From: Candidatus Enterovibrio altilux
Lineage (GTDB): Bacteria; Pseudomonadota; Gammaproteobacteria; Enterobacterales; Vibrionaceae
DNA length: 64,000 bases
Assembly: GCF_002381345.1 (NCBI RefSeq)
Contig: NZ_CP020660.1
Coordinates: 62,001 to 126,000 of the forward strand
Direction: 5' to 3'
Numbering within the stretch: the stretch's first letter is position 1; the number at the start of each line of letters is the position of its first letter. The translations under genes and the position numbers were made by a program. A model generated the notes under the pieces. It searched no databases. It worked only from the letters and a program-made list of their open reading frames with translations, and was not told the origin of the DNA. Shown piece by piece: positions 6,743 through 62,624 of the stretch.

Positions 6743-7827
6743 GGCTTTGTTTCTTAATTTGAATTGAGATAGCAAATCCTCACATGATTAACGATTAAAC
6801 CATTACTTTCGTGTTAGGCATGCCTAGTCTTGCCAGTTTGTTTAATGCTTTTATCATAGCGTAGGTTTCATTAATCTGCATTGTATGATTCCTGAGACTT
6901 AATGTCCCTCTCAGTCGTTTTTTGACTAAAACCATTGCTGTCTTTGCCATGGAACGTTTATGGAAATCGGCTTTATTTTCTAAATAATGGAGCTAAATTT
7001 TTAAGCAATATTCTAAATAGTTAGGTTCGCTTAAATATTCAGATCTATGATAATCTTCACTACAAAACAACGAACTGGAAGCAGCATAATCAAACTGTAA
7101 TCAATTGTGACTCACTAACATTCTGGGTTCATGAAGAAGCTAATCAGCCATGAAATCAAACGAAGCAGGATAATAATGGGAGACCTCATTTATTTAATAC
7201 TTAGTCATTGATTCTATGAAGCTCAAAATCTGCGGTGAAGCAAAATGGAAAGTAAAAAAAAGATGGTACTGATGGGAAACGGCGAGTCTGACAAAAGCGG
7301 CATTTAACAGTAGATATAAATACGCTTGAAATCATTGCTACTGAGTGAAGTGTATCAAATGTGACTGATGATGAAGTGCTACTTACTTACTCATACAACC
7401 CCGCCGCAAAATTAATGAAATATCAGCCGATGGTGCTTATGACACCAGACAATGTGTGAAACCGTTCATATTAAACGAACGATTTCACTCATCCCACCAA
7501 GGCAAAAAATAATTTTTTGAAAACGAAATTATCCGCGTAATTTAAAGGTTAGTTACCAGAAGTTATACGGTTCAAATCAGCATTGAAAAACGAAATATGA
7601 TTATACTACACGCTCCTTACCAGAGACGGCAAAGTTTCGAATTAAAAAAATTTCTGTAAGGATATTGAGCTTAAAGAATTACAATGCTTAGATTAGTTAA
7701 TTCTACGTCATAATGAAAATGTTAAATAAGCTGATATAGCTAGTAAGTATGTTTAAAACGCAAACAAGAGTTTAATAGTGAATCATGTTGAGATTGGCGA
7801 TCTGAACTCTAAGTAAGAAATAAGACC
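6743..7827 (+). mobile_element. Composite IS5-family relic (inverted 3' arm plus deleted plus copy)
   Basis: Bases 6743-6968 are an inverted copy of the terminal 225 bp of the element, starting GGCTTTGTTTCTTAATTTGA and running to GGAACGTTTATGG. It is joined directly to a plus-oriented copy at 6969-7827 that starts GGCTTTATTTTCTAAAT and ends near AAGTAAGAAATAAGACC. The plus copy lacks about 210 bp between two copies of ACTTAGCCATT (here ACTTAGTCATTGATTC near 7201), consistent with slippage between direct repeats. The transposase is non-functional. Same architecture as 9229-10445, 42063-43332 and 48535-49767. Confidence 0.85.
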
Positions 7828-8289
7828 ACTTAAAGCATAAATTAATAAGTTAGTTCTCTGATTGAGAGAGCACAGTCCAATAAAAGCATACACGAAGATT
7901 AATCACGATTTTTAAAGAGCTAAAAATCAATAGTGGTATCTTATTTTCACCTACAACGTTATATAGATATAGTACATAATATTTTAGTTTGCACGTAAAT
8001 ATCATGCATTCACTATGATGTGGCCATGCAGCGATTTCTTTTTTAAAAGCTTGCTCTAGTTGCAGAACATACTTTAAGACTCAGCGATTCAATGTGGCAT
8101 AATTCATGCCTAGCTTACGCGCTGGAAACATATATTCGAGATCATAAACTCTTAATTGGTAAGCAATATATAGTTAAAACTAACAAGAATAAACGATAAA
8201 GAAGCCTATATTTTTTAAACCATGATCAACTTATTGTATTATGATTAGCTGAGGGCTAAGTTTTTATTTTGAATTTATATAATGTAAAA
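7828..8289. other. Spacer with no intact gene
   Basis: AT-rich spacer downstream of ribA (which runs leftward) and after the IS relic. Apart from the IS6-like transposase scrap at about 8017-8155 and a roughly 25-bp motif near 8214-8240 (TAAACCATGATCAACTTATT) that recurs at 22634 and 39210, I see nothing interpretable. No clear terminator for ribA. Confidence 0.5.
8017..8155 (-). pseudogene. IS6-like transposase fragment with nonsense codon
   Basis: Read on the minus strand, the stretch gives MFPARKLGMNYATLNR, then a TGA stop, then VLKYVLQLEQAFKKEIAAW. Restoring one base (TGA to TGG) gives the helix-turn-helix NYATLNRWVLKY..LEQAFKK, which resembles the N-terminal domain of IS6-family transposases (typical reading HATLNRWV.KY.P.LE..F). 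Only about 45 codons are visible and the catalytic domain is absent. It is separate from the IS5-type relics. A different transposase family with a similar helix-turn-helix is possible. Confidence 0.45.
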
Positions 8290-8886
8290 TTAAAGTGTTA
8301 ACTTGTGCTTACCGTAAGATATCTTAGCTTGCAAATATTGTCTATTATCGTTTTTTAAATGTGCTTTAGTGCCAATTACATCACTTAGTTCAATTCCATA
8401 TTCTTGAATTTCTTTTATTTTTTTTGGATTATTTGTGATAAGTTGAATTACTGTTACTCCAAGCGCTTTCAACATGTCTGCCGCATCTTCAAAGCTACGC
8501 AAGTCATCTGGAAAACCCAAATAATTATTCGCCTGATATGTATCCATACCCGAGCTTTGAAGCCCATAAGCATCAAGCTTATTATACAAGCCAATACCTC
8601 TTCCCTCTTGACGTAGATAAAGCAAGATACCACCTTGCTCACCCATCTTTTGAATCGTTTCTTCTAACTGTTCGCCACAATCACAACGAGAAGAGTGGAA
8701 AACATCCCCAGTAAGGCATTCGGAGTGAATGCGAACCAATGGTGTATCTTGAAACTGATCAACATTTTTAAAGATGATAGCGACGTGCTCATTCTCCGTG
8801 TTTAGACCTTCAAACGACAGAATTTCTGCGGGGGTTTGACTGCCTACACCCACATTCAAAGCAATCCTTGCTCTTATTTTTGCCAT
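8290..8886 (-). CDS. ribA: GTP cyclohydrolase II (riboflavin biosynthesis)
   Basis: Converts GTP to 2,5-diamino-6-ribosylamino-pyrimidinone 5'-phosphate, the first step of riboflavin synthesis. Zinc ligands Cys57, Cys68 and Cys70 sit in [10 protein letters not shown] and SSRCDCG; the catalytic stretch [15 protein letters not shown] and [11 protein letters not shown] are present. The frame opens at 8928, but the family start MAKIRARI corresponds to the ATG at 8886, which has GAGAA about 10 bases upstream, giving 198 residues. The sequence resembles the Vibrio RibA paralog type (ARI..VG......AEILSF) more than the E. coli one. Monocistronic, flanked by decayed DNA on both sides. Confidence 0.92.
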
Positions 8887-9094
8887 CGACTGTAATTCTC
8901 TTTTCATTCGGTTTTCACCGATATACACATTCTAGATCTCACAAGCCATGTACTTAGAACCATAAAATTATTACATTATAATATTTATTACAACATGATG
9001 GATAATCGTACCAGAACTCTAAACATACCGCCAATCAATCAACATCCACGTGATAATAATGTTCGAAAGCTATACTTTATAAAACTATCAATGC

Positions 9095-9227
9095 AAGCAT
9101 TTCAAGGCGATAGAAGGATGCCAAGCAACCATGGCAAAAAATTCAACTTTAACCACTAAGTTCACATCTATAATGGCTCCTTCGCCAATGCATACACCAG
9201 CTACATGACACTGTTGTCACCTATTAC
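9095..9227 (-). pseudogene. Hexapeptide-repeat acetyltransferase relic
   Basis: On the minus strand the bases just inside the IS boundary read VIGDNSVM in one frame and, after a one-base shift, AGVCIGEGAIIDVN..V, then FFAMVAWHPSIALKC and a stop. This is the left-handed beta-helix hexapeptide pattern (IG..... IGEGAII....V) followed by the usual end of xenobiotic/Vat-type acetyltransferases (Y.IVGG.PAK.I). The 5' part is missing because an IS5-family composite abuts it at 9229. A frameshift and lost residues make it a clear pseudogene. The substrate cannot be inferred. Confidence 0.5.
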
Positions 9228-9228
9228 A

Positions 9229-10445
9229 GGCTTTGTTTCCTAATGCAAGTTCAAATAGCAAATCCTCACATGATTAACTATTGAACAATCGCTTTTATGT
9301 TAGGTATATCTGGTCTTGTTAGCTTATTTAACGCTTTTATCATCGCGTCAGTTGCACTAGTCTGAGTTGTGTGATTCCCTAGGCTCACTGTTCCTCCCAG
9401 TAGTTTTTTGACTCGAACCATTGCTGTCTCTGTTAGGAAACGTTTATGATAACTGACCTTATTCCCTAAATAAGGGAACTAATTTCAACCAACACTCTAA
9501 ATAATTAAGATCGCTGAAATATTCAAGTTATGAATAGTTTCCGTTACAAAATAACTAACTGGGAGTAGTATAATCAAGCTTTAATCAACTGTGGTTCACT
9601 CACATTCTAGGTTAATGAAGAAGATATTTAGCTATGGAATCAAACTAAGCAGAGTAATCATGGGAGACCTCGTTTATTTAGCGACTTAGCCACTATGACG
9701 GCTCTCATGGTTAAATGCGTATTTTGTAATGCCATGGGGCAGTTTGCGAGGATTCCTCATTCTGCTTTCAAACTTGCTCAACTGCCATTGTCATGCTCCT
9801 ACTATTCATGCATTAACAAGCGAACCAAAACGGTTGATGCCACGTTCAAGACGAAGAATAAAGGAAGCACCCAGCTATTGATGCTACGGGACTAAAAGTC
9901 CACGGTGAAGGAGAATGGAAAGTAAAAAAGCATGGTACTGATAGAAAACGGCGAGTCTGGCGCAAGTACAGTAGATACAAATATGCATGGAGTCGTTGCA
10001 GCTGAGTTAAGTGTATCAAATGTGACTGACGGTGAAGTGTTACCTAAATTATTTAAACAGCCACGCTGCAAAATCAATGAAGTATAAGTCAATGGTACTT
10101 ACGGCACCAGCCAATGTTATGAAACCATTCGTATTAAACGAACGGTTTCACTCATACCATCAAGATTCGAGATGAATTACTAGAAGTTATACGATTCCAA
10201 GCAACATTGGAAAAGAGGTATGGTTACCATACACGTTCCTTATCAGAGACGGCAATATTTCGAGTTTAAAAACTATTAAAAAGAACATTGAGCTTAAGAG
10301 ATCATAATGCTCAGATTTGTGAAATTTACGCTATGATAAAAACGTTCAATAAGTTGACCTGGTTAGGTATGCCTAAAATAAAAGTGATTGTTTAATCGTT
10401 AATCATGTTAAAATTTTTATTTGAACTCAAATTAAGAAATAACAC
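9229..10445 (+). mobile_element. Composite IS5-family relic (inverted 3' arm plus full plus copy)
   Basis: An inverted 225-bp arm (9229-9454), beginning GGCTTTGTTTCCTAATGC and ending AAACGTTTATGATAACT, is fused to a nearly full-length plus copy (9455-10445; start GACCTTATTCCCTAAATAAG, eroded end CAAATTAAGAAATAA). Transposase pieces readable in the plus copy include MTALMVK, SCINKRTKTV and VKKHGTD, but frameshifts and stops break it; the longest open piece is 66 codons. The inner junction is the same as in the other composites. The left end truncates a relic acetyltransferase. Confidence 0.87.
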
Positions 10446-10446
10446 T

Positions 10447-18408: not shown

Positions 18409-19461
18409 GGACCTTTTTCCCTAAATCAGCGAACTGAATTATCAATCTGCGCTCTAAACAGCTAGGATCACTGAAACGTTTAGTTCACTGAATCAACTTT
18501 GCTACAAAACAACTCACTGGAAGTCGTATAATTAAGCTTTAATCAATAGTGGCTCACTAATGTTTTTGATTAATGAAACAACTACTCAACTATGGAATCA
18601 AACTAAGTAGGGTAATTATGGGAGACGTCGTTTATTTAGTAACTTAGTCATATTACGATAGCCTCCCATGGTTAAACGCGTATTCTCAATGCTATTGAGA
18701 GGTCTACAAGATTTTATTAATTTATTTTTAAACTTGCTTAATGACCATTGTAATGCGCTGACTATTCATGTGTTAGCAAGCGAGCTAAAATAGTTAACGT
18801 CGTGTTTAAAACGAAGAATAAAGCAATCATTGAGCACTTAGCCATTGATTCTGCAGGGCTCCAAGTCTACGGTGAAGGAGAATGGAAAGTAAAAAAAGCA
18901 TGGTACTAATGGGAAACTACGAATCTTGCGCAAGTTACATGTAGAAGTAGACATAAAGGCGCATGAAATTATTACTCTTGAGTTAAGTGAATCAAATGTA
19001 ACTGACGGTTAAGCGTTGCATAACTTACTTAAATAGGCCCACCACAGAATTAATGTAATATCAGGTGATAGTGCTGACGACACAAGATAATATTACAAAA
19101 TTATTCGTATGTAACGCACGGTTCCACTCATCCCACCAAGAAAAGAAGCAACTTTTTGGAACCGCGATCATCTGCGTAATTTAGCGGTCAATTACCAGAA
19201 GTTATGCAGTTCAAATTAGATTGGAACATGAGGTATGGCTACTATAAATGCTCCTTATTATAGACAGCAATGGTCGAGTTAAAAAACTGCTTGTAGGGAC
19301 ATTGAGCCTAAGGGATCATAATGCTTAGATTAGCGAAACCTATACCATGATAAAAGCGTCAAACAAGCTGACAGGGATAGATATGTCAAAAGTGAAAGCA
19401 ATTGTCTAATAGTGAACCATATTAAGATTTGCTAACTGGACTCAAATTAGGAAACAAAGCC
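18409..19461 (+). mobile_element. Simple IS5-family relic, plus orientation, near full length
   Basis: The best view of the element's full extent (about 1,053 bp): eroded left end GGACCTTTTTCCCTAAATC and right end AATTAGGAAACAAAGCC. The transposase is readable only in fragments (ALINSGSLMF, KVYGEGEWKVKKAWY, SLRDHNA) across frames. Unlike many other copies there is no inverted arm. The right end lies 17 bp from the stop of ygfZ, which runs toward it. The left end is about 36 bp after the dxs stop, so it sits exactly between two convergent genes. Confidence 0.87.
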
Positions 19462-20577: not shown

Positions 20578-21912
20578 AACTTTATTTTTAAATTAGCGAA
20601 CTAAATTATTAACCCACTCTGCTAAGTAGCAAGATGCACTGAAGTATTCAGGTCTATGGTTGAGCTTAGTCACAAAACAACTAACTGAACGCTATATAAT
20701 TAATCATGGCTTTCAACATTTTGGATTAATAAAAAAGCCATTCAACTATGGAATTAAACTAGGCAGAGTAATCATGAAACACTTTGCTTATTAAGCAACT
20801 TAGCAATTACGAGGGCTCTCATGGTTAAACGGACTTTCTTTCCTCATTCGAGTTCAAACAGTAAATTGCCACATGATTGATTATTAGGCAATTGTTTTCG
20901 TGTTAGATATACTTAATTTTGTAAGCTTATTTAACGCTTTTATCATGGGGCACGCTTCTCTAATCTGAGCATTATGATTTTTTAAACGCAATGTACCTTT
21001 TAGAAGCGTGTGACTCTAAATATTACCGTCTTTGATAGAGAATATTTATGGTGACCATGCCTCATTTTCTACGATTAATTTGAACTGTATAATTTCTGGT
21101 GACTGACCGCAAAATTATATGAATGCTCTTGTTTACAAAAAATTGTTTTTTTTGGTGGGATGAGCGGAACCGCTCGTTTAATACGAACGGTTTTATAATA
21201 TTGTCTGGTATCGTAACCACTCTCGGCTGATATTTCATTCATTTTTCAGCGGGTCTGCTGCTTGGATAAATTAGGTAACACTTCACCGTTAGTCACATTT
21301 GATGCACCTAACTCAGTAGTAATGATTTCATGCGTATTTATATCTACCGCTAAATATAACTTACACCAGGCTCGCCGCTCCCCATCAGTGCCATGCTTTT
21401 TTATTTTTCATTTTCCTGCACCGTAGACTTTGAGTTCCGTAGAATTAATGCTAAGTCACTAAATGATCTAGATCTCCCATGATTACTTTGCTTAATTTGA
21501 TTCTATAGCTAAATAGCTTCTTTATGAATTCAAAATATTAGTGAACCACTATTGATTAAAGCTTGATTATACTGTTTTCAGTTCATTATTTGATAGCAAA
21601 AATTATTTATAGACCTGAATATCTAAGTGATTCTAACTGTTTAGAGTATTACTTGAAAATTTAGTTTCCTTATTTAGAGAATAAAACCAATTACCATAAA
21701 CGTTCCCTATCAGGGGCGGCAATGTTTAGAGTCAAAAATTTATTTGGAGGGACATTGATCTTAAGAGAGCATAATGCTCCGATTAGCTAACCCTGCGCCA
21801 TGATCAAAGTGTTACATAAGCTGATAGGGCTAGGTATTCCTAAAATAAAGCAAGCATCTAATCATTGATTATATTGGAACCTTCTATTTGAATGTAACTT
21901 AAGACAAATAAT
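20578..21912 (-). mobile_element. Composite IS5-family relic nested behind a plus fragment
   Basis: 20578-20830 is the left 250 bp of a plus copy, ending CTCTCATGGTTAAAC. At 20831 (GGACTTTCTTTCC) a minus copy begins and runs to about 21688. It lacks about 210 bp at the 11-bp repeat (reads GAATTAATGCTAAGTCACT at about 21441). At 21689-21912 the plus-oriented 3' arm follows (ACCATAAACGTTCCCTATC ... AAGACAAATAA). Minus copy plus arm is the mirror image of the composites at 6743 and 42063. The leading plus fragment ends at nearly the same place as the one at 877-1031. Confidence 0.85.
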
Positions 21913-22023
21913 TTGTACTTCATTAAGAATAATAAAAATGGCACTTGTACCGCGTTATTTTTTATTACTTATCATGCATATTTCATTATGCCTATAAATT
22001 TATCCGGAGCTTACTATGATAAA

Positions 22024-22660: not shown

Positions 22661-23624
22661 GGCTCTGTTTCCTAATTTGAATGCAGATAATGAATTTCAG
22701 TATAATGAACTATTAGGTGCTCACTTTTGTTTTAGGCATACTTAGCTCGATTAGCTTATGTAACGCTTTTATCATAGCTTCGGTTTAACCAATGTAGGCA
22801 TTGCAATCCCTTAGGTTCAACGCTTCTCTGAGTAGTTTTGGACTCGAACCGTTGCCGTCTCTGCTATGGAACGTTTATAATAGCTATGCATCATTTTTCA
22901 ATGCTGGTTTGAACCTTCTAATTTTTGGTAACTGACCACTAAATTACATGAGTGACCGAACTCTCCAAAAACTGCTTCCTTCCTTGATGGGATGATTGGA
23001 ACCGCTCATTTAATGCGAACGGTTTCATAACCGCCATTGCCTGATATTTTATTAATTTTTCGCGAGGCCAATTTGAACAAGTTAGGTAGCACTTCACCGG
23101 CAGTCATATTTAATGCACTTAACCCAGCAGGAATGATTTCATGCGTATTGATATCTACTACTAAATGTAACTTGCGCCAGGCTCGCAGTTTCCCATCAGT
23201 ACCATGCTTTGTTATTTTCCATTGTCCTTCACCTTAGACTTTGAAGGCCGTAGTAATGACTAAGCCGCTAAATAAAGGAAGTCTCCCATGATTACCCTGC
23301 TTAGTTTTATTCCATAGCTAAATAGCTTCTTCATCAATTAAGAAGGTTAGTAAACCCCGATTAATTAAAGCTTCATTATACGGTTCCTATTAGTTATTTG
23401 GCAGTTTAGTTCCCTGATTTAGTAAATAAAATCGCTTTGAATAAAAAAACCCTTCGGAGGGAAATTAGGTTTAAGTGATTATAATGCCTAAATTAATGCA
23501 ACTTACGTCACGATAAAAGCATTAAATAAACTGACAGGGATAGGTATGTCTAACACGAAAGTTCTCGTCTAATAGGGAATTATGTTGAGATTCAATATCT
23601 GAATTTAAATTAGGAAACAAAGTT
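22661..23624 (-). mobile_element. Composite IS5-family relic, minus copy with plus 3' arm
   Basis: Minus copy 22661-23433 (starts GGCTCTGTTTCCTAATTTG, ends CCTGATTTAGTAAATAAAA) followed by a plus arm 23434-23624 (TTGAATAAAAAAACCC ... AAATTAGGAAACAAAG). The minus copy lacks about 210 bp: the reading jumps at TAGTAATGACTAAGCCGC (about 23251), the site where the two AATGGCTAAGT repeats would recombine. The arm is about 190 bp rather than 225, so the inner junction has lost some bases. No transposase frame survives. Confidence 0.85.
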
Positions 23625-24052: not shown

Positions 24053-25257
24053 ATCTTTATTTCTTAATTTGAGCTCAGATAGCAAATTTTAATATGATTT
24101 ACTATAAGAAGAATGCTTTTATTTTAGACATACTTAGTTCTGTTAGCTAATTTAACGTTTTTATAATGGTGTAGACTTCACTAATTTGATATTGTAATCC
24201 TTAGCTCAATGTCTCTCCCAGTAGTTTCTTAACTTGAAATATTGCCGTCTTTGGCAGGGAATTAAGGAGCGTTTATGGTAGCCATATTTCGTTTTCCAAT
24301 GCTGATTAGAACCGTATCATTTCTGGCGACTTATCGTTAAATTACGCGGATGATTGCGTTCCCCAAAAATGGTTTTTCTTCGTTGCATAAGTGAAACTTC
24401 TCATTTAATCGGAACGTTCTTATAACATGGTCTGGTGTGGCAAGCATCACCGACTAATGTTACATTAATTTTTTAACGAGTTTACTGGAGCAAGTTAGGT
24501 AGTATTGGGTCGTCAAGTCACATTTGATGCACTTAACTTAGTAACAATGATTTCAGACGTATTTATATCTATCGCTAAATGTAACTTGCGTCAGACTCGC
24601 TGTTTCCCATTAGTACAATTTTTTTACTTTCCATTCGCTTTCATCGTAAACTTTGAGTTTAGTAGCATCAATGGTTAAGTGCTGGATGGTTACTTTAGTC
24701 TTTGTTTTGAACTCGACGCTAACTCTTTTGGCTCGCTTGTTAAGACGTGAATAGTGAGGGCATGACAATAGTAGTTGAGTCAGTTTAAAAATAAAATTAA
24801 TGAATTCTTGATGACTTCTTCATGGCATGGAGAATACGCATTTAACCGTTGGGCTGTCGTTATGGTTAAATTGTTGAAAAGCCGAAATTTTTGATGATTA
24901 CCTAGCTTAATTTGATTTCATAGCTGAATAGCTTCTTTATCAATTCAGAATGTTAGTTAGCTACGATTGATTAAAGCTTGATTATACTGCTTGTAGTTAG
25001 TTGTTTTGTAGCAAAGTTTATCCATAAACCTGAATATTTAAGTTAGTTTAGCTGTTTAAAGAGTAGACTGATAATTTAGTTCCTTGCTTTAGGAAACACA
25101 GCCCTAAGGGAGCACACAGTTCAGATTAATGAAATCTACGGCATGATAAAAGCGTCAAATAAGCTGACAGGACTAGATATGCCTAAAACGAAAGTGATTG
25201 TTTAATAGTGAATTATGCTGGAGTTTGCTCTTTGAACTCGAATTAGGAAACAAAGTC
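24053..25257 (-). mobile_element. Composite IS5-family relic, minus copy with 150-bp plus arm
   Basis: Nearly full-length minus copy 24053-25103 (left TTTATTTCTTAATTTGAG, right TTTAGGAAACACAGCC) joined to a plus arm 25104-25257 that begins CTAAGGGAGCACACAG and ends AATTAGGAAACAAAGTC. The same junction (IS end followed directly by CTAAGG) is present in the 1032-2183 relic. The minus copy here is not deleted at the 11-bp repeat. All reading frames are interrupted. Confidence 0.85.
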
Positions 25258-26126: not shown

Positions 26127-26913
26127 AGCTCTGTTTCTTCATTCAAATGCAGATAGTACATTTAAATATGATTAATGATTAAACAACCGCATTTGTTTTA
26201 GGTGTGCCTAATCTTGTCAGCTTATTTAATGCTTGTATCATGGCGTAAGTTAGACTAATCTGAGCATTATGATCTCGTAAGCTCACCGTCTTTTTGATTA
26301 GTTTTTTGATTCAAAATATTGCCGCCTTGAATAGGGAACGTTTATAATAATTATACCTTATTTTTCAATGCTTACTTGAGCTGTATAACTTCTTATAACT
26401 GACCGCTAAATTACGCGGGTAAACTCGTTTTCAAAAAATTGTTCCTTTCTTGGTGAGATGAGTGAAACCGCTCGTTTAATACGAACGGTTTCGTAACGTT
26501 GTCCGGTGTCGTAGGCGCCATCGGCTGATATTTCATTGATTTCCTCGCGGGTCTGTTTGAGTAAGTTAGGTAGCACTTCACTGTCAGTCACATTTGATGT
26601 GCTTAACTCAGCAGCAATGATTCCATACGTATTTATATCTATCCCAAGGTATAACTTGCATCAAATTCATCGTAGACTTTGAGCCCTGTAAAATAAATGG
26701 CTAAGTGTGGAATGTTACCTTTATTTTTCGTCTCGAATGTGACGTTAGCCGTTTTGGCTCGCTTATTAATGCATGAAAAGTAAGGGCATGACAACTGCAG
26801 TTAAGCAAAGTTTGAAACAAAGTTTATGCCTAACACGTAAGCGATTGTTTTATAGTGAATCATGCTGGTGTTTGCTATCTGAATTGGAATCAAAAAACAA
26901 AGCTATATGATTA
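26127..26913 (-). mobile_element. Truncated composite IS5-family relic
   Basis: Minus copy 26127-26820 (start AGCTCTGTTTCTTCATTC) breaking off after GACAACTGCAGTTAAGC, then about 90 bp of plus-oriented right end (26821-26913; TTTATGCCTAACACG ... ACAAAGC). The missing part is the third of the element that encodes the N-terminus of the transposase. Longest open frame 61 codons (TDSEVLPNLLKQTREEI). It lies directly upstream of tadA. Confidence 0.83.
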
Positions 26914-27388: not shown

Positions 27389-28753
27389 CTGTTTTATTTC
27401 GTAACTTGAGTTTAGATAGCACATTTTAACATGATTAACTATGAAACGAGTGCTTTTATTTTAAGCATATGTAGCTTGGTTAACTTATGTAACTCTTTTA
27501 TCATGGCGTAGATTTCGCTAATCTGAGCATTATAATTCCTTAAGCTCAATGTCCCGCTAAGTAGTTTTTTGACTATAAATATTGTCGTCTCTGATCGGCA
27601 ACATTTATAGTAACCATATCTCGTTTTGCAATGCTGATTGGAACTGTATTACTTCTGGGAACTGACCGCTAAATTACACGGATGATCTCGTTCCTCAAAA
27701 GTTACTTCTTATTTTGGTGGTATGAGTGAAACTGCTCGTTTCATACGAACGGTTTTGTACATTTATCTGATATAGCAAGTATCGCCGTCAGTTACATTTG
27801 ATGTATGTAACTCAGCAGCAATGATTTCATGCTTACTTATACCGACCGCTAAATGTAATGTATGCCAGACTCGTTATTTCCCATCAGTGCCATGCTTTTT
27901 TACTGTACATTTTCCTTCGCCACAGGCTTTGAGCTCTGTAGCATCAATAGATAAATCAATGAGGTCTCTCATTATTATAATGCTTAGTTTGATTCCATAG
28001 CTGAATAGCTTTTTAATCAATCCAAAATGTTAGTTAGTTACGATTGATTATACTGCCTCCAGTTAGTTGTTTTGTAGCGAAGATTGCTCATAGACCCGAA
28101 TATTTGAGTGAGCCTAGTTGTTCAAGGTGCTAGTTGAAAATTTAGTTCCATAATTTAGGAAATAAAACGAGTTACTAGAAACGTTCGATGGCAGAGATAG
28201 TAATGGTTCAAGTTAAAAAACTATTAGTAGGGATCTTAAGTCTAATGAATCACATAACTCAGATTAGTGAAACCGGCGGCATGATAGAAGTGTTAAATAA
28301 GCTGACAAGATTAAGTATGTCTAATACGAAAACTATTGTCTAATAGTGAATTATGTGGGGATTTGTTACCTGAATTTAAGCTAGGAAACAAAGTCGCTAC
28401 GGAGCTAAAAATCTATGGTAAAGGTGAATGGAAAGTAAAAAACATGGTACTAATGGAAAATGACGAATCTGACGCATGTGATATTTAGAGGTAGATATGA
28501 ATACACATGAAATTAATGCTGCTCAGTAAAGAGCGGTTTAACTTGCTTGAATAGACCCGCTGAAGGAGTAGTGAAAAATCATGCGATAGTGCTTACGACA
28601 CCAGATAATGTTACAAATTAGTACGTATTAAACGATCGGTTTCACTCATCCCACCAAGAAAAGAAGCAACTTTTTGGAAATGAGGTTATCCGCGTAATTT
28701 GGCGATCAATTACTCATAGTTATAAGGTTCAAATTCACCTTAAAAAACTAGAC
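27389..28753 (-). mobile_element. Composite IS5-family relic followed by a permuted middle segment
   Basis: Minus copy 27389-28169 (TGTTTTATTTCGTAACTTGA ... TTTAGGAAATAAAACG), deleted at the 11-bp repeat site near 27950. Plus 3' arm 28170-28395 (TTACTAGAAACGTTCG ... AGGAAACAAAGTC). Then, unusually, 28396-28753 is the middle of a plus copy (GGAGCTAAAAATCTATGG ... GTTCAAATTCACC), which in an intact element lies immediately before the arm sequence. So arm and middle appear in permuted order. Confidence 0.83.
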
Positions 28754-30757: not shown

Positions 30758-32007
30758 AGCTATGTTTCCTAATCCAAGTTTAAATAGCAAACCGCAACAT
30801 AATTCATTATTAAACAATTACTTTCGTTTTAGGTATACCTAGCTCTGTCAGCTTATGTAACGCTTTTATCATGGCGGAGGTTTCGTTAATATAAGTATTA
30901 TGATCACTTAGGTTCAATGTACTTTTCGTAATTTTTTGATTCAAAACATTACCATTTTTGATATGGAGTATTTGTGGTAATCATACCTCTTTTTCTTGTG
31001 CTTGTTCGAATCGTATAGCTTTTGGTAAGTAACTGTTAAATTATGCTACTTACCTGATTCCTAATAAGTTATTCCTTTTTTAGTGGAATGATTAGAACCA
31101 CTCGTTTCATACAAATGATTTCGTAACATTGCCTTGTGTCGTAAGTTTCATCGCCGGATATTTCATTGATTTTTCGGTAAGTTTGTTTAAGCAAATTACG
31201 TAGCATTTAACGGCCAGTCATATTTGATGCATTTAACTCAGCAGCAATGACTTCATGCGTATTTATATCTATGGCTAAATGTAACTTGCGCCAGACTTCG
31301 CTGTTTTTCATTAGTACCAGAGCTTTCTTACTTTCATTCGTCTTCACTGTAAACGTTGAAACTTGCAGAATTAATGGTTAAGAGCTGGGTGGTTCTTAGT
31401 TTTCGTCTTGAACATAACATTAACCGTTTTCACTCGCTTGCTAATGAATAGTGAGGTGCGTGACAACGGCAGTTGAGCAAGTTTGAAAATAGAATTAATG
31501 AATCCTTGCAGAGCTCTCAATGGCATTTAAAATGCGCATTTAACCATGAGAGGCATCATAATGGCTAAATCGTTAAATAAATTAGGTTTCCCATGATTAT
31601 CCTGCCTAGTTTGATTCCATAGCTAAATAGCGTCTTCATTAACCCAGAATGTTAGTAACCCACGATTCATTAAAGCTTGATTATACTGCTTCCAGTTAGT
31701 TGTTTTGTAGCGCAACTTGTTCATAAATTTGAATGTTTAAGTTAACCTAGCTGTTTAGCAGTGTAGATTGATAATTTAGTTCCCTTATTTAGAAAATAAA
31801 GTTGCAGAGATGGTAATGTCTTGAATTAAAAACTACGTGGAGGGACATTGATCCTAATGGACTACAACGCTCAGATTGATAAAACCTACGCCATGATAAA
31901 AGCACCAAATAAGCTGATAGAATGAGTTACACCTGAAACAAAAGTAATCGTCTAATAGTGAATTGTATTGAAATTTGCTATCTGAATTTGAATTAGAAAA
32001 TAAAGTC
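30758..32007 (-). mobile_element. Composite IS5-family relic, minus copy with plus 3' arm
   Basis: Full-length minus copy 30758-31803 (AGCTATGTTTCCTAATCC ... TTATTTAGAAAATAAAG) plus a 205-bp plus arm 31804-32007 (CAGAGATGGTAATGTCTTGA ... TTAGAAAATAAAGTC). The arm junction has lost about 20 bp relative to the canonical GGTTACCATAAACG start. No internal deletion at the 11-bp repeat. Reading frames are destroyed throughout. Confidence 0.85.
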
Positions 32008-35190: not shown

Positions 35191-35842
35191 AGTACGGGAT
35201 GGTTCCTCTAGTCTTCGTCTTAAACACGACATTACCCACTTTAATTCGCTTGCTAATGTATGAATAGTGAGAGCATAGCAACGACAGTTGAGCAAGTATG
35301 AAAATAGAATGAGCAGATCCTTGCAGACCTTTTAATGACATTACAAATATGCGCTTAACTATGAAAGCTGTAGTGATGGTTAGGTTGCTCACTAAATGAG
35401 GTCTCCCATAATTATTTCGTTTAGTTTAATTCCATCGTTGAATATTTTATTTATCACTCTACAATTTTAGTGAGCCCCGATTGATTAAAATTTTATCATG
35501 CTGCTTTCAGTTAGCTGTTGTGTAGCGAAGATTGTTCATAGGCCTGGATATTGAAGTGAGTCTAGTTGTTTAAAGTATTAGTTGAAAATTTAGTTATCTT
35601 ATTTAGGAAGTAAAGCCGGTTAGCATAAATGTTCCCTAGCAAAAACAGCAGTAGTTAGAATTAAAAAACTACTGCTAGGGACATTGAGTCTAAGACATCA
35701 CACAACTTAGATTAGCGAAACCTAAGCCATGACAAAACGTTAAATAAGCTGACAAAACTAGGTGCACCTAACACGCAAGCGATGGTCTAATAGTGAATCA
35801 TGTTGAGATTTGTTATCTGAACTAGAATTAAAAAGTAAAGCC
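35191..35842 (-). mobile_element. 5'-truncated composite IS5-family relic
   Basis: Only the second half of the minus copy remains (35191-35617; GGATGGTTCCTCTAGTC ... AGGAAGTAAAGCC), directly followed by the 225-bp plus arm (35618-35842; GGTTAGCATAAATGTTCCC ... AAAAAGTAAAGCC). This copy preserves the canonical inner junction, IS end ...AAAGCC joined to GGTTACCATAAACG..., most clearly. The arm contains a 10-bp inverted repeat AGCAGTAGTT/AACTACTGCT at 35647-35676 that is not in the consensus. Confidence 0.84.
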
Positions 35843-37747: not shown

Positions 37748-39133
37748 GCTTTGTTTCCTAAATTAGGGCACTAAATTATCAATCTACGCTTTCAACAGCT
37801 CGGCTTATTAATGTTCGAGATTAATGAAAAAAACTACCCAGCTATGGAATCAAACTTAGCAGAATAATCATAAGAGACTTCGTTTACTTAGCAACTTAGC
37901 CATTGCGACAGCTCTCATGGTTAAAAGCGTATTTTTAACGCCTTTGAAAGATTTTAGAGGATTCATTAGTTCTATGTTCAAACTTGCTTAACTGCCAGTA
38001 TTATACCCTCACTGGTCATGCATTAGCAAGTGAGCCAAAATGGTTAACGTCGAGTTCAAAATGAAGGCTAGGTGAAGACGATTGGAACAGCCTTGTTTCT
38101 TAATTCGAGTTCAGATAACAAATTTCAATATGATTCGCTATTAAACAATCGCTTTTGTTATAGGCATACCTAGTCTTATCAAATTATGTAACGTTTTTAT
38201 CATCGCGTAGGTTTCGCTAATCTGAACGGCGTGCGCCCTTAGATTCAATGTCCTTTCAAGTGTTTTTTTGATTCAAAATATTACCGTCTCTGATAGGGAA
38301 CGTTTATGGTAATTATACTTCTTTTCCAAGGCTGATTGAAACCGTATAACTTCTGGTAACTGACCGTTAAATTACGCGGGTAACTTCGTTTCCAAAAAGT
38401 TGTTTCTTTTCTTGGTGGTATGAGCAGAACCGTTCGTTTAATACGAACGGTTTCGTAGCATTGTTTGATATGGCAAGCACCATCGCCTGATATTTCATTG
38501 CTTCAGAAGCAGAGCTGTTTGAGTAAGTTAGACAGCACCTCACCGTCAGTCACATGTGATGTCCTTAACTTAACAGCAATGATTTCACGTGTATTTATAT
38601 CTACCACTATATGTAACTCACGCCGGACTCGCCGTCTCCCATCAGTGCATGCTTTTTTACTTACTATTAACCTTTACCGTAACTTTCTGTTTCGTAAAAT
38701 AGATGGTTAATGCTGGATAATTTTTTGAATCTTTGTCCTGAACGCGACGTTAATCATCTTGTCTCTCTTGCTAATGTCTGAATAGGGAGGACATGACAAT
38801 GGCAGGTGAGTAAGTTTGAAAACAAAATTAATGAATCCTTGCAGATTTATCAACGTGTTGAAATACTTGTTTGACCATGAAAGCCGTCATAGTAGTTAAT
38901 TTGTTAAATAAACGAGGTCTCCCATGATTACTCTGCTTAGTTTGATTCCATAGCTAAATGGCTTCTTCATCAACCCAAAAGATTAGTGAACCACGATTAA
39001 TTAAAGTTTTATTATACTGTTTCCAGTTAATTATTTTGTAATGAAGCTTGTCCATAGACCTGTATATTTAAGTGAACTTAGCTGTTTAGAACGTAAATTG
39101 ATAACTGAGCTCCCTGATTTAAAAAGCAAAGCC
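37748..39133 (-). mobile_element. Full-length minus IS5-family relic joined to a plus fragment
   Basis: 37748-38088 is the left third of a plus copy (GCTTTGTTTCCTAAATTAGG), with an internal loss near 37795. It is cut at GACGATTGGAACAG, where a complete minus copy begins (38090-39133; GCCTTGTTTCTTAATTCG ... TTAAAAAGCAAAGCC, 1,044 bp). No right arm follows. An 81-codon frame on the plus strand here (38465-38710) is antisense chance. The minus copy carries an internal perfect stem AACCGTTCGT/ACGAACGGTT at 38428-38452. Confidence 0.84.
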
Positions 39134-41265: not shown

Positions 41266-42062
41266 GGTTTTATTTCTAAATTAAGGAACTAAATTATCAA
41301 GATACGTTCTAAACAACTAGATTCACTTAAATATTCAGGTCTGTGAACCCGCTTCACTACAAGATAATCAATTGGCAACAGTGTAATCAAGTTTTAATCA
41401 ATAGTGGTTCATTAATATTCTGGATTGATTAAGAAGCTACTCAACTATGACATCAAACTAAGCGGGGGAATCATGGGTAACTTCGTTTATTTAGTGACTT
41501 ACCACTTACAACGGCTCATGGTTAAACGCATATTTTTAATGCTATTGAAAGGGCAGTAAAAATTCATTAATTCTATTTTTCAAACCTACTCAATTACCGT
41601 TATTATGCTCTCATTATTCATGCATTAGCAAACGAGCCAAAACGGTTAATGTCGTGTGTAATATGAAGACTAAAGGCCTTACCCAGCACTTAGCTATTGA
41701 TTCTACTAATCGGAAAATTTACGGTAAAAACGAACGGCGAATAAAAAAGTATGGCACTTACAGCAAGCGTCTAGTTTGACGTAAGTTACATTTAGTGATA
41801 GATATAAATACGGATGAAATCATTGCTGATGATTGAAATCTATCAAATATGACTAACAGTGTCGTGTTGCCTAATTTGCTTAAATAGACCAGATGAAGAA
41901 TCATCAGGCGATAGTGCTTACAACGCCACACAATGTTACGCAATGGTTCGTATTAAATGAGTGATACCACTTATCTCACCAAGAACAGGGACAACTTTTG
42001 GGAATGAGGTCATCCTCGTAATTTAGCGGTTAATTTTTCGTAATTATACGGCAAATGAGCAT
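41266..42062 (+). mobile_element. 3'-truncated IS5-family relic, plus orientation
   Basis: Starts GGTTTTATTTCTAAATTAAG only three bases after the kinase stop. Runs through eroded transposase pieces (CISKRAKTVN, HLAIDST) to ATTATACGGCAAATGAGCAT, where it is replaced by the inverted arm of the next composite at 42063. It lacks about the last 250 bp, the part that the adjoining composite carries as inverted arm. Confidence 0.83.
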
Positions 42063-43332
42063 GGCTGTGTTTCTTAATTTTAATTTAGATAGTACATCCC
42101 AACATAATTCACTATTAATAATTACTTTCGTGTGAGATATCCCTAGTTTTGTTAGCTTATGTAACACGTTTATCATGGCGTCGGTTTTTTAATTTAAGTT
42201 GTATGATTCCTTAGGCTCAATGTGCTTCTCAGTAGTTTTTTGACTCGACCTATTGCTGTTTTTATTAAAAAATATTTATTTGAATTGGCATTATTTCCTA
42301 AATAAAATTTAAATTTTCAATCAATACTCCAAACAGTTAGGCTCACTTAAATATTCAGGTTTATGAATAATCTGCGCTACAGAACAACTAACTGGAAGAA
42401 GTATAATTAAGCTTTAATTAATCGTGACTCACTAACATCCTGGATTGGTGCAGAAGCTATTTAGCTATGGAATCAAACGGAGCAAAGTAATCATGGGAGA
42501 TCTCGTTAATTTAGCAACTGAGTCATTACGGTAGCCCTCATGGTGAAATGCATATTTTTAATACCATTGAGAGGTCTGCAAGGGTTAATTAATTTTGTTT
42601 TCAAATTTGCTCAATTGCCGTTGCCATGCCCTCACTATTCATGCATTAGCAAACGAGTCAAAACGGTTAACGTCACGTTCAAGACGAAGAATAAAAGAAA
42701 CATTCAGCACTTAGCTATTGCTTCTATGGAGCTAAAAGCCTACGGTGAAGGAAAACGAAAAGTAAAAAAGCATGATACTGATGAAAAATGGGGAGTTTGG
42801 TGCAAATTACACTTAGTGGTAGATATAAATATGCATGAAATCATTGCTGCTGAGTTAAATGCATAAAATGTGACTGATGATGAAGTGCTACCTAATTTGC
42901 TTAAACAGACCCGCCAAAAAATCAATGGAATATTAGCCGATGGTGTTTACGACACCAAACAATGCTACGAAATCGTTCGTATTAAACGAGTGGTTCCACT
43001 TATCCCACCAAAAAAAGGAATAATTTTTTGAAAATGAGGTTATCCGTGTAATTTAGCGGTCAGTTGCTAAAATTATACGGTTTCAATCAGCATTGAAAAA
43101 CGAGGCATAGTTGCCATAAACGTTCCCTATCAAAGATGGCAATATTTTTAATAGAAAATTATTGGGAGGTACATTGAGCCTAAGAGAATACAATGCTCAG
43201 ATTAGCGAAACTCCCGTCGCGATAAAACGTTAAATAAGTTTACCGGGTTAGATATGCTTAAAATGCAAACGATTATTTAATAGTTAATCCTGTTGAAATT
43301 CATTATCTGAACTCGAATTAGCAAATAAAGTC
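42063..43332 (+). mobile_element. Composite IS5-family relic, least eroded copy
   Basis: Inverted 3' arm 42063-42286 (GGCTGTGTTTCTTAATTTTA ... AAATATTTATTTGAATT) joined to a full plus copy 42287-43332 (GGCATTATTTCCTAAATAA ... AATTAGCAAATAAAGTC). The plus copy has the longest transposase stretch in the window: 108 codons at 42540-42866 (MVKCIFLIPLRGLQGLI, SCISKRVKTVNVTF, WCKLHLVVDINMHEIIAAEL), ending at a TAA before the second catalytic region. An intact transposase of this group would be about 300 residues, so it is dead. It ends about 39 bp before tamA. Confidence 0.87.
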
Positions 43333-46587: not shown

Positions 46588-47593
46588 AGCATTGTTTCCT
46601 AAATCAGGTGAACTAAAGTATTAAGCTACGTTTTAATAGCTAGGTTCATTTAAATATTCAGGTATATGGGCAAACTTTACTGCAAAATAACCAACTAATA
46701 GTAGTATAATAAAGCTTTACTTGATCATCGCTCACTAATATTTTAAATTGATGAAGAAGCTATTCAGCTGTAAAATTAAACTAAGCTGGGTAATAGGGGG
46801 GGAGATCTCGTTTACTGCAGAACTTAGCTATTACGACGATTCATGGTCAAATGTGTATTTTAATGCCATCAAAAAGTCTACAAGGATTAATTTATTTTGT
46901 TTTCAAAGGTGCTAAATCATCGTTTCAATGTCATCATTATTAATGCATTTGCAAGTGAATCAAAACGGTTAATGTCGCACTCATGACGAAGATTAAAGGA
47001 ACCATTTAGCACTTAGCCCTTGGTTCTGCGAGGATGAAAATTTACAGTGGGGGCGGATTAAAAGTAAAAAAGCATTGCATTGATGGGAAACGTAGAGTCT
47101 GGCACAAATTACATTTAGCGCTAAATATAAATACGCATAAAATAATTGCTTCTGAGTTAAGTGCATCAAATGTGACTAACGACGAGGTGCTATCTAACTT
47201 ATTCAAACAGACTTGTCAAAAAAATTAATTAAATATCAGCCGATAGAGCTTATTATATAAGATAGTATTACAAAACTCTTTGCATTAAACGAGCGGTTTC
47301 ACTCATATTCCACCTAAAAAGAAGTCGCTTGTGAAGAACATGGTTATCCACAGAATTTAGAGGTCAGTTACCATAAATTTTTCGATGAAAGACGGTAATG
47401 TTTAGAGTCAAGAAGCTATTCGGGGGGGGGACATTGAGCCTAAGGGATTACAATACTCCATATTGATGCAACTGGAGCCATGATAAAAGCATTAAATAAG
47501 TAGACTGAGCTAGATATGCCTAAAATGAAAGCAATTCTTTCATAGTTCATCATGTAGAAATTTGCTATCTGAACTCGCATTAAAGAACAAAAC
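46588..47593 (+). mobile_element. Simple IS5-family relic, plus orientation
   Basis: Plus copy without an arm: left end AGCATTGTTTCCTAAATCAG, right end CATTAAAGAACAAAAC. A 64-codon open piece (47034-47228) reads RVWHKLHLALNINTHKIIAS, the second catalytic region of the transposase. Two homopolymer expansions stand out: seven G at about 46796-46802 (consensus CATGGGAG) and nine G at about 47422-47430 (consensus CTGGGAGGGAC). Confidence 0.85.
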
Positions 47594-47619
47594 TATTGAC
47601 ATTAAGAATAATTGATTAG

Positions 47620-48534: not shown

Positions 48535-49767
48535 TACTAACATTATTCTAGTTTAGACAGTAAATTTCAACATGATTTGACTATTAGACAATCGCTTTCG
48601 TGTTAGACAGACTTCGTCCTGTCATCTTACGTAATGCTTTTACCATGGCGTCGGTTTCACTAATCTGAGCTATGTGATTTCTTAGGCTCAATGTCCTTCC
48701 CAGTAGCTTTTTTAACTCGACCCATTGCTTTTTTTGCTATGGAACGTTTATGGTGATCGGCTTTATTTCCTAAATAAGGGAACTAAATTTTCAATCAACA
48801 CTCTAAACAGTGAGGCTCACTTAAATATTCAGGTTTATGAATAAGCTTCGCTACAAAATAACTAACTGGAAGCAGTATGATCAAGTTCTAATAAATAGTA
48901 GCTCACTGACATTCTGAATGGATGAAGAAATTATTCAGCTATGGAATCAAACTAAGCAGGATAATCATGGGAGACCTCGTTTACTTAGCGACTTACCCAT
49001 TACGATGGCTTTCATAGTTAAACGCGTATTTTCAATTCCATTGAGAGGTCTTTAAGAATTAATTAATGCTGTTTTTAAATTTGTACAGATGCCGTTATCA
49101 TGCCCTTACTATTGATGCATTAACAAGCGGGCCAAAATAGTTAACTTGTGTTCCATATGAAGGTTCAAAGTTTATGGTGAAGGTGAATAGAAAGTAAAAA
49201 AGCATGGCTCTGACGGTAAATCTTGAGTCTGGCACAAGCTACATTTAGCGATAGATATAAATATGCATGAAATTATTGCTGTTGACTTAAGTGCATCAAA
49301 TGTGGCTGACGGTTAAATGCTACTTTACTTGCTCAAACAGATCCGCCGCAGAATAAATGAAACATAAGATGAGGGAGTTTACGACCCTAGATAATGTTAC
49401 GAAATCATTCGTATTAAATGGGGAGTTTCAGTCATTTTACCAAAAAAAGGAACAATTTTTTAAAAACGAAGCCATCCGTGTAATTTAGCGGTTAGTTACC
49501 AGAAGTCATGCGGCTCAAATCAGCATTCAAAAACGAAATATGATAGTCATAAACATTTTTTAACAGAGGCGATCATCGTTCGAGTTAAAAAATTTTTTAG
49601 AGGAACATTGAACCTAAGGGAGCATGATGCTCAGATTAAGGAAACCTACGCCATGCTCAAAGCGTTAAATGAACTTACCGGGCTAGGTATTCCTAAAACA
49701 ACAGTGATTGTTTAATTGTTAATCATATTAAAATTGATTATCTGAACCCGGATTAGGAAACTAAGTC
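48535..49767 (+). mobile_element. Composite IS5-family relic (inverted 3' arm plus plus copy)
   Basis: Arm 48535-48758, whose own terminal repeat is nearly erased but then matches well (AGTTTAGACAGTAAATTTCA ... GGAACGTTTATGG). The junction TGATCGGCTTTATTTCC leads into a plus copy 48759-49767 (ends GATTAGGAAACTAAGTC). The plus copy has a small deletion in the transposase near 49155 and many stops. It ends about 15 bp before the terminator of the DUF406 gene. Confidence 0.86.
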
Positions 49768-52620: not shown

Positions 52621-53313
52621 AGACTTTGTTTCCTAATCCTAGTTCAGATAACAAATTTCAACATAATTCGCGATTAGACGCGCGCTTTAGTTTTAGGTAT
52701 ACCTAATCAATTAGCTTATTTAACGCTTTTATCATGGTATAGGTAGCGCCAATCTGGGCATGGTACTCCCTTCGACTCAAGATCCCTCCGAATATTTTTT
52801 TAACTTGAACCATGTCTTTATTTCCTAAATCAGAGAACTAAATTATTAATCTATGTTCTCAATGGCTAGGATCATTTGAATACTTAGGTCTATGAGCAAA
52901 CTTTGCTACAAAAGAATTAACTGGAAGCAGTATAATTAAGCTTTAATCAATCGTAGTTCACTAATATTATGGATTGATGAAGAGACCACTCAGTTATGCA
53001 ATCAAACCAAGCAGTGTAATCATGGAAAACAACGTTTATTTAGTGACTTAGTCATTACAACAGACCTCCTGGTTAAACGTGTGTTATCAATGCCATCGAG
53101 AGGTCTCCAAGGATTGATTAATTCTATTTTCAAACTGACTCAACTGCCGTTGTTATTTCCTCACTATTCATGCATTACCAAGCGTGCCAAAATAGTTAAT
53201 GTTGCGTCCAAGATGAAAATTCAAGGAATCGTTTAGCACTTAGTCATTGATTTTATGGGGTTAGAAATCTACGAGAAGGACGCATGGGAAGTAAACAACC
53301 ATGGCAGTTAGCA
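52621..53313 (+). mobile_element. Composite IS5-family relic, 3'-truncated
   Basis: Inverted arm 52621-52807 (AGACTTTGTTTCCTAATCC ... TTTTAACTTGAACC) joined to the left half of a plus copy 52808-53313 (GTCTTTATTTCCTAAATCAG ... ACCATGGCAGTTAGCATT). The junction is at ATGGTTCGAGTC in the arm, about 40 bp shorter than the canonical one and probably the same as at 23433. Transposase pieces WIDEETTQL and ALMVK-like survive in part. It lies upstream of the coiled-coil membrane gene. Confidence 0.83.
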
Positions 53314-60464: not shown

Positions 60465-60509
60465 AAATTGAATGTGTAAATAATACAGTTTCCGTGTTTC
60501 GGAGGTTAT

Positions 60510-61520
60510 ATGATGTATCGCTTTGCCAGAGCGGCCATTTTTAAGCTTGACCCAGAGCATGCTCATGATCTGATCATTAAAAATCTTTCTCGTTTCACTG
60601 ACACTCTGTTAGATGTTTTTTATCGTCAAGACCTTCCGCTGCGTCCTGTTCAAGTCATGGGATTGCATTTTAAAAATCCAGTAGGCCTTGCGGCAGGCTT
60701 AGACAAAAACGGGGAGTGCATTGACGCATTTCGCGTAATGGGGTTTGGTTTTGTAGAAGTAGGAACGGTTACACCACGTCCTCAATCAGGCAATGATAAA
60801 CCACGTCTTTTCCGTGTACTTCCAGCTGAAGGTATTATCAATCGCATGGGGTTCAATAATGCAGGTGTTGATGCACTGGTTGCAAATGTAAAGAAGACAA
60901 AATACGAAGGTATTGTCGGGATCAATATCGGTAAAAATAAAGATACATTACTAGCAAATGGTAAAAATGACTATTTAATTTGCATGGAGAAAGTCTATAA
61001 TACTGCAGATTATATTGCGATTAATATATCTTCGCCAAATACGTCAGGTCTTCGTGCAATGCAATATGGTGAAGCACTGGATGATTTATTGCATTCACTG
61101 AAAGTGCGGCAAAATGAATTGGCTCAAGATAGTGGTAAATATGTACCGCTTGCATTAAAGATCGCGCCAGATATGATAGAAGACGAATTGATTCAGGTTG
61201 CTGATGCTTTGATTCGTCATAACATTGATGGTGTTATTGCTACTAACACAACCTTGGATAGGTCATTGGTAAAAGGTATGCCGTACGCTCAAGAGCAGGG
61301 TGGTTTAAGTGGGCGTCCTGTTCAAAACCGAAGCACTGAAGTGATTCGTCGTTTGTATCAAGAATTGAATGGTAAGTTGCCAATAATAGGAGTGGGTGGC
61401 ATTGATTCAGTTATAGCTGCAAAAGAAAAAATAATGGCTGGTGCTGTGCTTATTCAAGTTTGCTCTGGTTTTATCTACCATGGTCCAAAACTGGTTAAGA
61501 GTATTGTTAACAATATTTAA
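60510..61520 (+). CDS. pyrD: Dihydroorotate dehydrogenase (quinone), class 2
   Basis: Membrane-associated FMN enzyme oxidising dihydroorotate to orotate with quinone, in pyrimidine synthesis. The 336 residues include the N-terminal membrane-contacting helix ([20 protein letters not shown]), [16 protein letters not shown], the catalytic-serine segment [12 protein letters not shown], the FMN segment [10 protein letters not shown], and [28 protein letters not shown]. Length equals that of E. coli PyrD (336). A strong GGAGG lies just upstream of the first of two tandem ATGs (60510 and 60513). Probably cotranscribed with gdhB. Confidence 0.96.
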
Positions 61521-61654
61521 CCCAAAAGTTAAGTAATTAGCAAGAAGGAAAATTAGGGTTACCATTTTTTGTTTCAATTTAATTAAATTTCGGAAAAAAC
61601 ACATATTCAATCAGACATGTGTGTTAAGTAGTCTTTTGATACCTCCGCAAAAGT

Positions 61655-62624
61655 ATTAATGCTTGAACACAAGACAATGTTACGAAACAGCTCGTTCAAT
61701 ACGTATTGTTTCGTAACATTGTCTTGTGTCGGAAACATTATCGGCTGATATTCCATTGATTTTTTTAACGGTACTGGTTGAGCAAGTTAGGCCTTACTTC
61801 ACCGTTAGTCACACTTGACGCACTTAACTGAGCAGCAATGATTTCATGCGTCTTTACATCTACCGCTCAATGTAACTTGTACCATACTCGACGTTTTCCA
61901 TCAGTGCCATGCTTTTTTACTTGCCGTCTAGCTGCACCGTAGACTTTGATCCCTGTAGAATCAATGGCTAAGTGTTGAATAAGTTTGAAAATCTTCGGCT
62001 TACACACGACATTAACGGTTTTGGCTCATTTGCTAATGCATGAATAATGAGGGTATGATAACTGTAGTTGAGCAGGTGTGAAAATAAAATTAATGAATGC
62101 TTACAGATCTCTCAATGTCATTTCAAATATACATTTAACCATGAAAGACGCTATCATGGCTAAATCTCTAAATAAACGAGGTCTCCCATGATTATCTTGC
62201 TCCGTTTGATGCCATAGCTGCATAGCTTTTCCATTAATCCAAAATGTTAGTTAGCCATAATTGATTAAAGATTGATTATGCAGCTTCCAGTTAGTTATTT
62301 TGTAGTGAAGATTCTTCATAGACCTGAATATTTAAGTGAGCCTAACCGTTTAGAGTATTGATTAAAAATTTAGTTTTCTTATTTAAAAAATAAAGCCGGT
62401 TACCATAAATCTTTCCTAGCAGAGACAGCAATGGTTCGAGTCAAAAATTACTGGGAGGGATGTTTTGCCGAAGGAATCACATAACCAGGCTAGTGAAACC
62501 GATGCCATGATAAAAGCGTCAAATAAGCTGACATGGTTAGTAAGTGTGCTGAAAATACAAGCAAAAGTTTAATAGTGGATCATATTGAAATTTGTTATCT
62601 GCACTCTAATTAAAAAACAAAGCT
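61655..62624 (-). mobile_element. Truncated composite IS5-family relic with perfect hairpin at its broken end
   Basis: Minus copy missing its first third (61690-62397; GTTTCGTAACATTGTC ... AAAAAATAAAGCC) followed by the canonical 225-bp plus arm (62398-62624; GGTTACCATAAATC ... TTAAAAAACAAAGC). At the broken left edge about 40 bp of plus-oriented element precede it, so that 61667-61688 and 61708-61729 are perfect 22-bp inverted repeats (each containing GACAATGTTACG or its complement). It ends 46 bp before the ABC ATPase gene. Confidence 0.83.

Follow-up and report, generated by a model that had tools for sequence, protein, structure and literature searches.

The 64,000-nucleotide window analysed here (C1:62001-126000 of Candidatus Enterovibrio altilux, whose reduced genome has 2,143,356 bases in 4 contigs, 1,604,691 of them in contig C1) contains copies of an IS5-family insertion sequence (IS), some of which are joined to an inverted segment of the 3' end of a second copy. 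The question raised by these composites is whether each was formed in place, by insertion of one IS into another, or whether a chimera, once formed, moved as a unit, as an earlier note on this DNA had proposed. We found that one class of composite, with its inner junction at position 826 of our IS model (the 826 class), is scattered to unrelated sites, and that most of its arms and bodies have a common origin and behave as one inherited mobile unit.

The passages on the symbiont in one published account describe "Ca. Enterovibrio luxaltus" CC26 as the light-organ symbiont of the anglerfish Cryptopsaras couesii, and report a count of 672 IS5-family transposase genes in its genome (PMC6020299). 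All symbiont transposases were ranked there as pseudogenes, because end repeats were missing or copies were truncated, and no mention of composite IS copies was found in that account's passages on symbiont transposases (PMC6020299). Two intact relatives (L065 and L066) of the family in the window matched NF033579 at 363.7 and 380.6 bits (cutoff 140), and the simple-class consensus was 86-88% identical to three relatives. Judged from the intact relatives and this consensus, the family is that of an IS5-family transposase.

Copies and arms were mapped with a body profile of 1051 model positions, built from 20 copies. Sample counts refer to an evenly spaced sample fixed by place, which comprised the window and 20 stretches of 20 kb (L039-L058), 464 kb in all, and in which the IS5-type family made up 27% of bases. 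Further loci were picked for likeness to the composite (L009-L038 and L122-L161) and are thus biased, or were picked by junction-model matches (L162-L178) and hold mostly minor junctions. The pooled set held 319 elements, or 300 once overlaps were removed, with 96 composites of the 826 class (30 with sample labels) and 99 simple copies (66 with sample labels).

Structure and common origin of the 826-class composite

The consensus of 20 full-length composites consisted of a 226-bp arm and a 1051-bp body, 1277 bp in total. The body is a whole IS with a left tip GGCTTTATTTCC, a transposase frame (present apart from one or two consensus stops) and a right tip ending AAACAAAGCC. The arm corresponds to body positions 826-1051 in inverted orientation and abuts the left tip with zero spare bases (...ATGGTAACC joined to GGCTTTATTTCC), so that the consensus has zero bases of passenger DNA between the two, a comparison that took in 34 of the 37 sample junctions of the class. 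Inspected by eye, the joint showed no shared bases, and such an exact joint at the left tip points to a product of transposition. Right-end tips stand at both outer boundaries and the left end is internal, which bears out the proposal that both outer ends are the same IS end. In the consensus the element stops sharply at the outer tip of the arm, and this limit is conserved. The composite has long terminal inverted repeats of 226 bp, as foldback elements do. Simple copies have a left and a right end outermost, whereas the composite has no outer left end and so departs from the IS5-family norm.

Divergence from the own consensus, measured in the sample only, was 15.4% for composite bodies (n = 26) and 18.1% for simple bodies (n = 54); the composite copies are younger than the simple copies. 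Decay of the copies is severe: the longest sense frame from stop to stop in the 300 pooled copies was 179 residues, compared with about 304 in a relative. Changes of G>A and C>T together made up 55% of all changes from consensus in the pooled 826-class bodies.

Each arm had been thought to copy the 3' end of its own IS, which did not hold. The consensus arm and the body's own 3' end were identical at 204 of 226 sites and differed at 22, and arms were no closer to their own body than to others. Arm identity in the sample was 0.700 to the own right end (n = 21), 0.703 to other right ends and 0.721 to other arms; the pooled values were 0.701, 0.706 and 0.738, respectively.

Variant sites were chosen on the 30 composites and 66 simple copies bearing sample labels and were scored in other copies. 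Among these, which were fetched by likeness to the composite, partly with a model containing some variant sites (and some of the 66 test composites fall in sample stretches, though filed under another locus), arm-type variants were found in 59 of 66 arms, 5 of 52 own 3' ends and 1 of 9 simple 3' ends, and composite-body-type variants in 60 of 66 composites and 10 of 33 simple copies. The contrast was weaker, yet persisted, in a stricter test that used only sites outside the search model: 50 of 66 arms were arm-type (14 ordinary, 2 undecided) as against 9 of 53 own 3' ends and 1 of 9 simple 3' ends, and 52 of 64 composites were composite-body-type as against 12 of 32 simple copies. Trees gave the same kind of clustering. 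The sample-only arm tree showed 11 label changes versus 23.6 after shuffling (minimum 16, 78 rows) and the sample-only body tree 9 composite-label changes versus 19.1 (minimum 14, 73 rows), with pooled values of 23 versus 65.4 for arms and 24 versus 48.5 for bodies. That the arms share variants rare in the 3' ends of their own bodies, and are no closer to those bodies, argues strongly against local formation.

Dispersal and use of the ends

The sample contained 56 composites, of which 37 had the 826 junction; no arm was detected in 69 further left-ended copies. Arm remnants were kept by 9 of the 66 sample copies classed as simple. A profile of 80 bases around the joint gave junction-spanning 826 matches at at least 150 places on all four contigs (C1-C4), and scaling from the sample suggests about 170 copies of the 826-class composite genome-wide. 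The 20-base junction, with up to 2 mismatches, occurred 75 times in the genome versus 0 for the pattern read backwards. Around the 64 composites with both tips, 28 of the 128 flanks held IS sequence, and only 3 similar pairs were found among the remaining 100 IS-free flanks.

All three composite body variants were present in 2 of 57 clean simple copies of the sample (1 more has two) versus 23 of 30 composites (6 have two). The pooled set gave all three in 3 and two in 2 of 79 simple copies, versus 73 and 17 of 96 composites. With arm-less offspring carrying composite variants this rare, and with a near-fixed change in the inner left end, it is probable that the 826-class unit used its two right ends for movement. 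The inner left end carried A at position 7 in 28 of 29 sample composites, and the outer arm tips (n = 25) carried G in 16 and A in 8. Position 7 was G in nearly all ends of relatives, in an end check that took the first 60 of 80 loci, found both ends in 55 and used a pattern favouring G there. The A is most likely the founder state; it may weaken, or have disabled, the left end, and lies in a part of the IS903-like ends that we take to have a binding role.

Origin of the chimera and rival explanations

The reading that we favour, with a probability of about 0.8, is birth by nested insertion followed by joint transposition as a two-right-ended unit with a near-silent left end, a later wave and decay. 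An IS5-family element of about 1053 bp with IS903-like ends would have inserted in inverted orientation into a slightly different copy, inside the transposase gene at GGTTACCAT, so that 226 bp would separate the host copy's outward right end from the left tip of the inserted copy. Everything between the host right end and the inserted right end, left end and gene included, could then transpose as one 1277-bp unit. The inner left end, with a founder change from G to A at position 7, would have been silent or nearly so, and the chimera would have spread over all four contigs in a later wave of at least 150 copies, before decay set in across the whole family. Nested-insertion birth and pairing of two right ends by the transposase are steps that we infer; together, inverted insertion at GGTTACCAT and joint movement of the right ends would explain all parts in two ordinary steps. 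A bolder idea, tentative and somewhat doubtful, is that an IS lineage whose left end had been crippled by the G-to-A change at position 7 regained, and perhaps raised, its mobility through nested capture of a second right end, and that the two-right-ended unit drove a late wave of IS expansion. If true, insertion into a sibling copy could restore ISs that are dead or weakened, and a genome saturated with ISs could generate new transposons out of the ends it already has.

Several results weigh against the nested-insertion reading. Target-site duplications, of which a 9-bp length is presumably typical of the IS903-like group, gave no signal at the 64 composites with both tips (9-bp match 0.293 versus 0.284 shuffled), with a 7/8 or 7/9 match at just 3 of the 64. 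The 39 simple copies behaved alike (0.319 versus 0.305 shuffled; 3 also partial), and perfect 9-bp duplications were found in 17 of the 55 relatives with both ends. Because simple copies fail equally and relatives pass, the loss is not evidence against the composites, and this check, which the earlier note had suggested, did not discriminate. Causes of missing duplications named in one published account are recombination between copies and adjacent deletions (PMC11708052). IS fragments adjoin one side only in 18 of 21 abutted 826-class composites, so the flanks were rearranged, and none of the 21 lies in a frame of overlapping host coordinates. Of the copies checked, just one nest is framed, that of a simple copy in another at L047:18235-20000, with a host overlap at model 747-753 (7 positions). 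The variant scores are noisy, with 14 of 66 arms ordinary and 12 of 32 simple copies composite-type on the stricter sites, and the composite at 20832-21913 has an ordinary arm on a composite-type body; its arm may have been exchanged with another copy or replaced. Clean simple left ends in the sample (n = 56) carried A at position 7 in 19 cases and G in 32. Neither the arm tree nor the body tree held a single clean clade, as expected of short, decayed copies. The founder nested locus was not found.

Local formation everywhere would mean that inverted IS insertions recurred at the same hot spot and that the rest of the host copy was lost. Nested copies do abound, most of them inverted and many one-sided; the 13 copies of the 845 class have a common junction with a within-class identity of 0.677 versus 0.683 to simple right ends, and junctions at model 241 and 114 each recur three times. 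We nevertheless consider it improbable, since most arms of the 826 class have in common variants seldom met in other right ends, most bodies share others, arm-to-arm identity exceeds arm-to-right-end identity, and arms and bodies cluster on trees.

Two further explanations accept that the chimera spread and differ in how. In one, the chimera moved by its left and right ends as a normal IS does, and read-through or one-ended events took the arm along. Composite variants would then be expected in copies that lack an arm, and all three variants were found in just 2 of 57 clean simple copies; the exact, conserved outer arm tip also speaks against it. We regard it as very unlikely, even though the body is still a complete IS, left end included, and no outer target duplications could be demonstrated. 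In the other, the chimera spread among copies by homologous recombination or segmental duplication instead of transposition, which would suit the rearranged flanks and the missing target duplications. The arm, however, sits beyond the left end and is itself followed by unrelated sequence, so that a simple copy undergoing conversion would lack homology on its second side, and the 3 similar pairs among 100 IS-free flanks and the copies on all four contigs also count against this explanation, the least probable of those considered.

Composites in the window and minor junctions

At all 13 places in the list of the earlier note, an inverted 3'-terminal segment was found beside the 5' side of an IS copy, within about 10 bases by the body profile. 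The common inner junction held at eight of them, at model 826 (6743, 9229, 20831, 27389, 35191, 42063, 48535 and 61690). The other junctions were at about model 897 (24053 and 1032), 845 (30758) and 859 (52621), and the junction at 22661 was lost. The claim of a whole IS copy at every site failed: the right part is missing at 35191, 52621 and 61690 and the left end at 1032 and 22661, and there are internal deletions at 6743, 20831, 22661 and 27389. Movement of the chimera itself is thus well supported for the 826 class, by its junction, arm and body variants, trees and nearly always unrelated flanks, and has no support at the other five places. Differing junctions and insertion of IS into IS, named beforehand as grounds for rejecting a mobile composite, appear to apply to four of these five, the fifth having lost its junction.

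Features of the IS family in the window; variant counts are given in the order arm-type or composite-type:other
Feature	Position	Strand	Details
826-class composite	6743..7827	+	arm 6743-6969, body 6969-7827, internal deletion model 230-423; arm variants 10 arm-type:0 other
826-class composite, both outer tips present	9229..10446	+	arm 9229-9454, then body; arm variants 8:1
826-class composite by junction and body variants, arm ordinary, internal deletion	20832..21913	-	body variants 11:1, arm 2:8
826-class composite, two internal deletions	27390..28395	-	arm variants 9:0; script class 'other' (aligned junction at 819), placed in the 826 class by eye and arm variants
826-class composite, right end lost by truncation of the body at model 427	35191..35841	-	arm variants 9:1
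826-class composite, full length	42063..43332	+	body variants 17:0; adjoins truncated simple copy 41267-42064
826-class composite, full length	48535..49767	+	start taken from the earlier list, profile match from 48544; arm variants 7:3
826-class composite, body truncated at model 713	61684..62623	-	body variants 11:2, arm 5:4
Composite, different junction class (model 897)	24053..25257	-	body 8:6 and arm 3:3, a mixture of variants
Probable second 897-junction composite, left end lost	1032..2183	-	C1:63994-64088 matched over model 3-97
Composite, 845 junction class	30758..32007	-	body 5:11, of ordinary sequence type
Arm joined at about model 859 to body truncated at 495; probably a separate nested insertion	52622..53308	+	ordinary type, body 1:8
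Arm and body, left end and junction lost, internal deletion; no class assigned	22661..23624	-	
Small arm (model 972-1050) beside 5'-truncated body	26127..26904	-	not in the earlier list
Simple full-length copy, no arm detected	18410..19461	+	variants 4:11
Simple full-length copy, no arm detected	38089..39133	-	variants 2:14
Simple full-length copy, no arm detected	46588..47594	+	variants 5:9

Internal deletions with the same end points (model 244-424, 66-141 and 285-332) were seen, for example, at window 6969-7824, 20833-21688 and 27393-28168, and their end points lie at short direct repeats of 11 bp (244-424), 8 bp (285-332) and only 5 bp (66-141). They were rejected as marks of non-autonomous subfamilies, as the same end points occur in simple and composite copies. 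At about 8300-8890 in the window, a reading frame judged by eye resembles GTP cyclohydrolase II (ribA).

The 161 right tips of the sample were abutted by 22 fragments on the opposite strand and 8 on the same strand, and 18 of the 22 opposite-strand fragments reached a left tip, giving the mirror-image arrangement. Genome-wide, 13 copies were assigned to the 845 junction and about 6 to the 897 junction, and none of 7 minor-junction arms was arm-type. As independent mobile chimeras, the 845 and 897 junctions had no support from within-class identity (the 845-class comparison took in 60 826-class composites, the first of 96). The 845 class had 10 arm-specific sites, where controls averaged 3.7 and reached 8 at most, which is only a hint. 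The minor classes are read more simply as repeated insertion at preferred sites, local nested insertion probably explains most of them, and small-scale amplification is possible.

A left-end fragment (model 1-241) lies inverted against a right tip with the same junction at L042:632-1096, L044:12962-13250 and L057:17206-17884; these three mirror-image chimeras are possibly left/left composites or reflect a favoured insertion site. A serial nest at L049:17348-18985 has the order left-end fragment, right-end arm, left-end fragment, right-end arm, body, and holds the model 114-115 joint twice.

Relatives and comparison with known systems

Simple-IS relatives were found in many Vibrio and some Shewanella and Photobacterium, and none of 80 loci of relatives showed an inverted 3'-end match. 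The 20-base junction (up to 2 mismatches) was absent from 17 other genomes of the genus. Across 199 genomes, it gave the own genome and four single matches, all with 2 mismatches; reading the pattern backwards as a control yielded two single matches. The 80-base junction model, run on 18 genus genomes, matched two beyond the own, namely G012 (91 matches, best E 1e-7) and G017 (3 matches). The 13 rescanned loci of these two genomes were weak (33 bits or less), most matched well on just one side of the joint, and none of the 13 had an arm joined to a left end. The body profile, applied to six of the loci, found ordinary body fragments at the 3 from G012, and two arm-less left ends and one absence of a match in G017. 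Judged on one genome per species, the chimera may be private to this lineage.

Part of the symbiont's IS expansion is thus a structurally different, two-right-ended element, which offers a testable route from nested IS copies to new mobile units and suggests that tools seeking pairs of left and right ends would miscount such elements. No bacterial element of this two-right-end build was found in the titles and abstract openings of the best-ranked open-licence literature.

The Vibrionaceae IS5-family ISs, whose ends we take to be IS903-like, share with the chimera the transposase family, the GGCTTTGTT ends and the length of about 1053 bp. They differ in being simple elements with a left and a right end, whereas here two right ends are outermost. 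Eukaryotic foldback elements have long terminal inverted repeats that form a fold-back unit, as in the chimera, whose arms, by contrast, are plain copies of an IS 3' end with an IS5-family gene inside. Bacterial miniature inverted-repeat transposable elements (MITEs) and other minor IS-derived elements are likewise IS-derived and reach high copy number in reduced genomes, a Cardinium MITE being one example. MITEs are short and non-coding, with no transposase gene, whereas the chimera exceeds its parent IS in length and has retained the gene. Tn5, Tn10 and Tn903 are composite transposons in which inverted IS copies move by their outside ends. They share with the chimera two inverted IS copies, like outer ends and one copy with a whole transposase gene; the chimera differs in having no cargo and a second copy reduced to a 226-bp arm abutting the left tip. 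That the chimera uses its outer ends we infer from its dispersal and its rarely used left end. It is built wholly of IS5-family parts and works like an inverted composite transposon without cargo.

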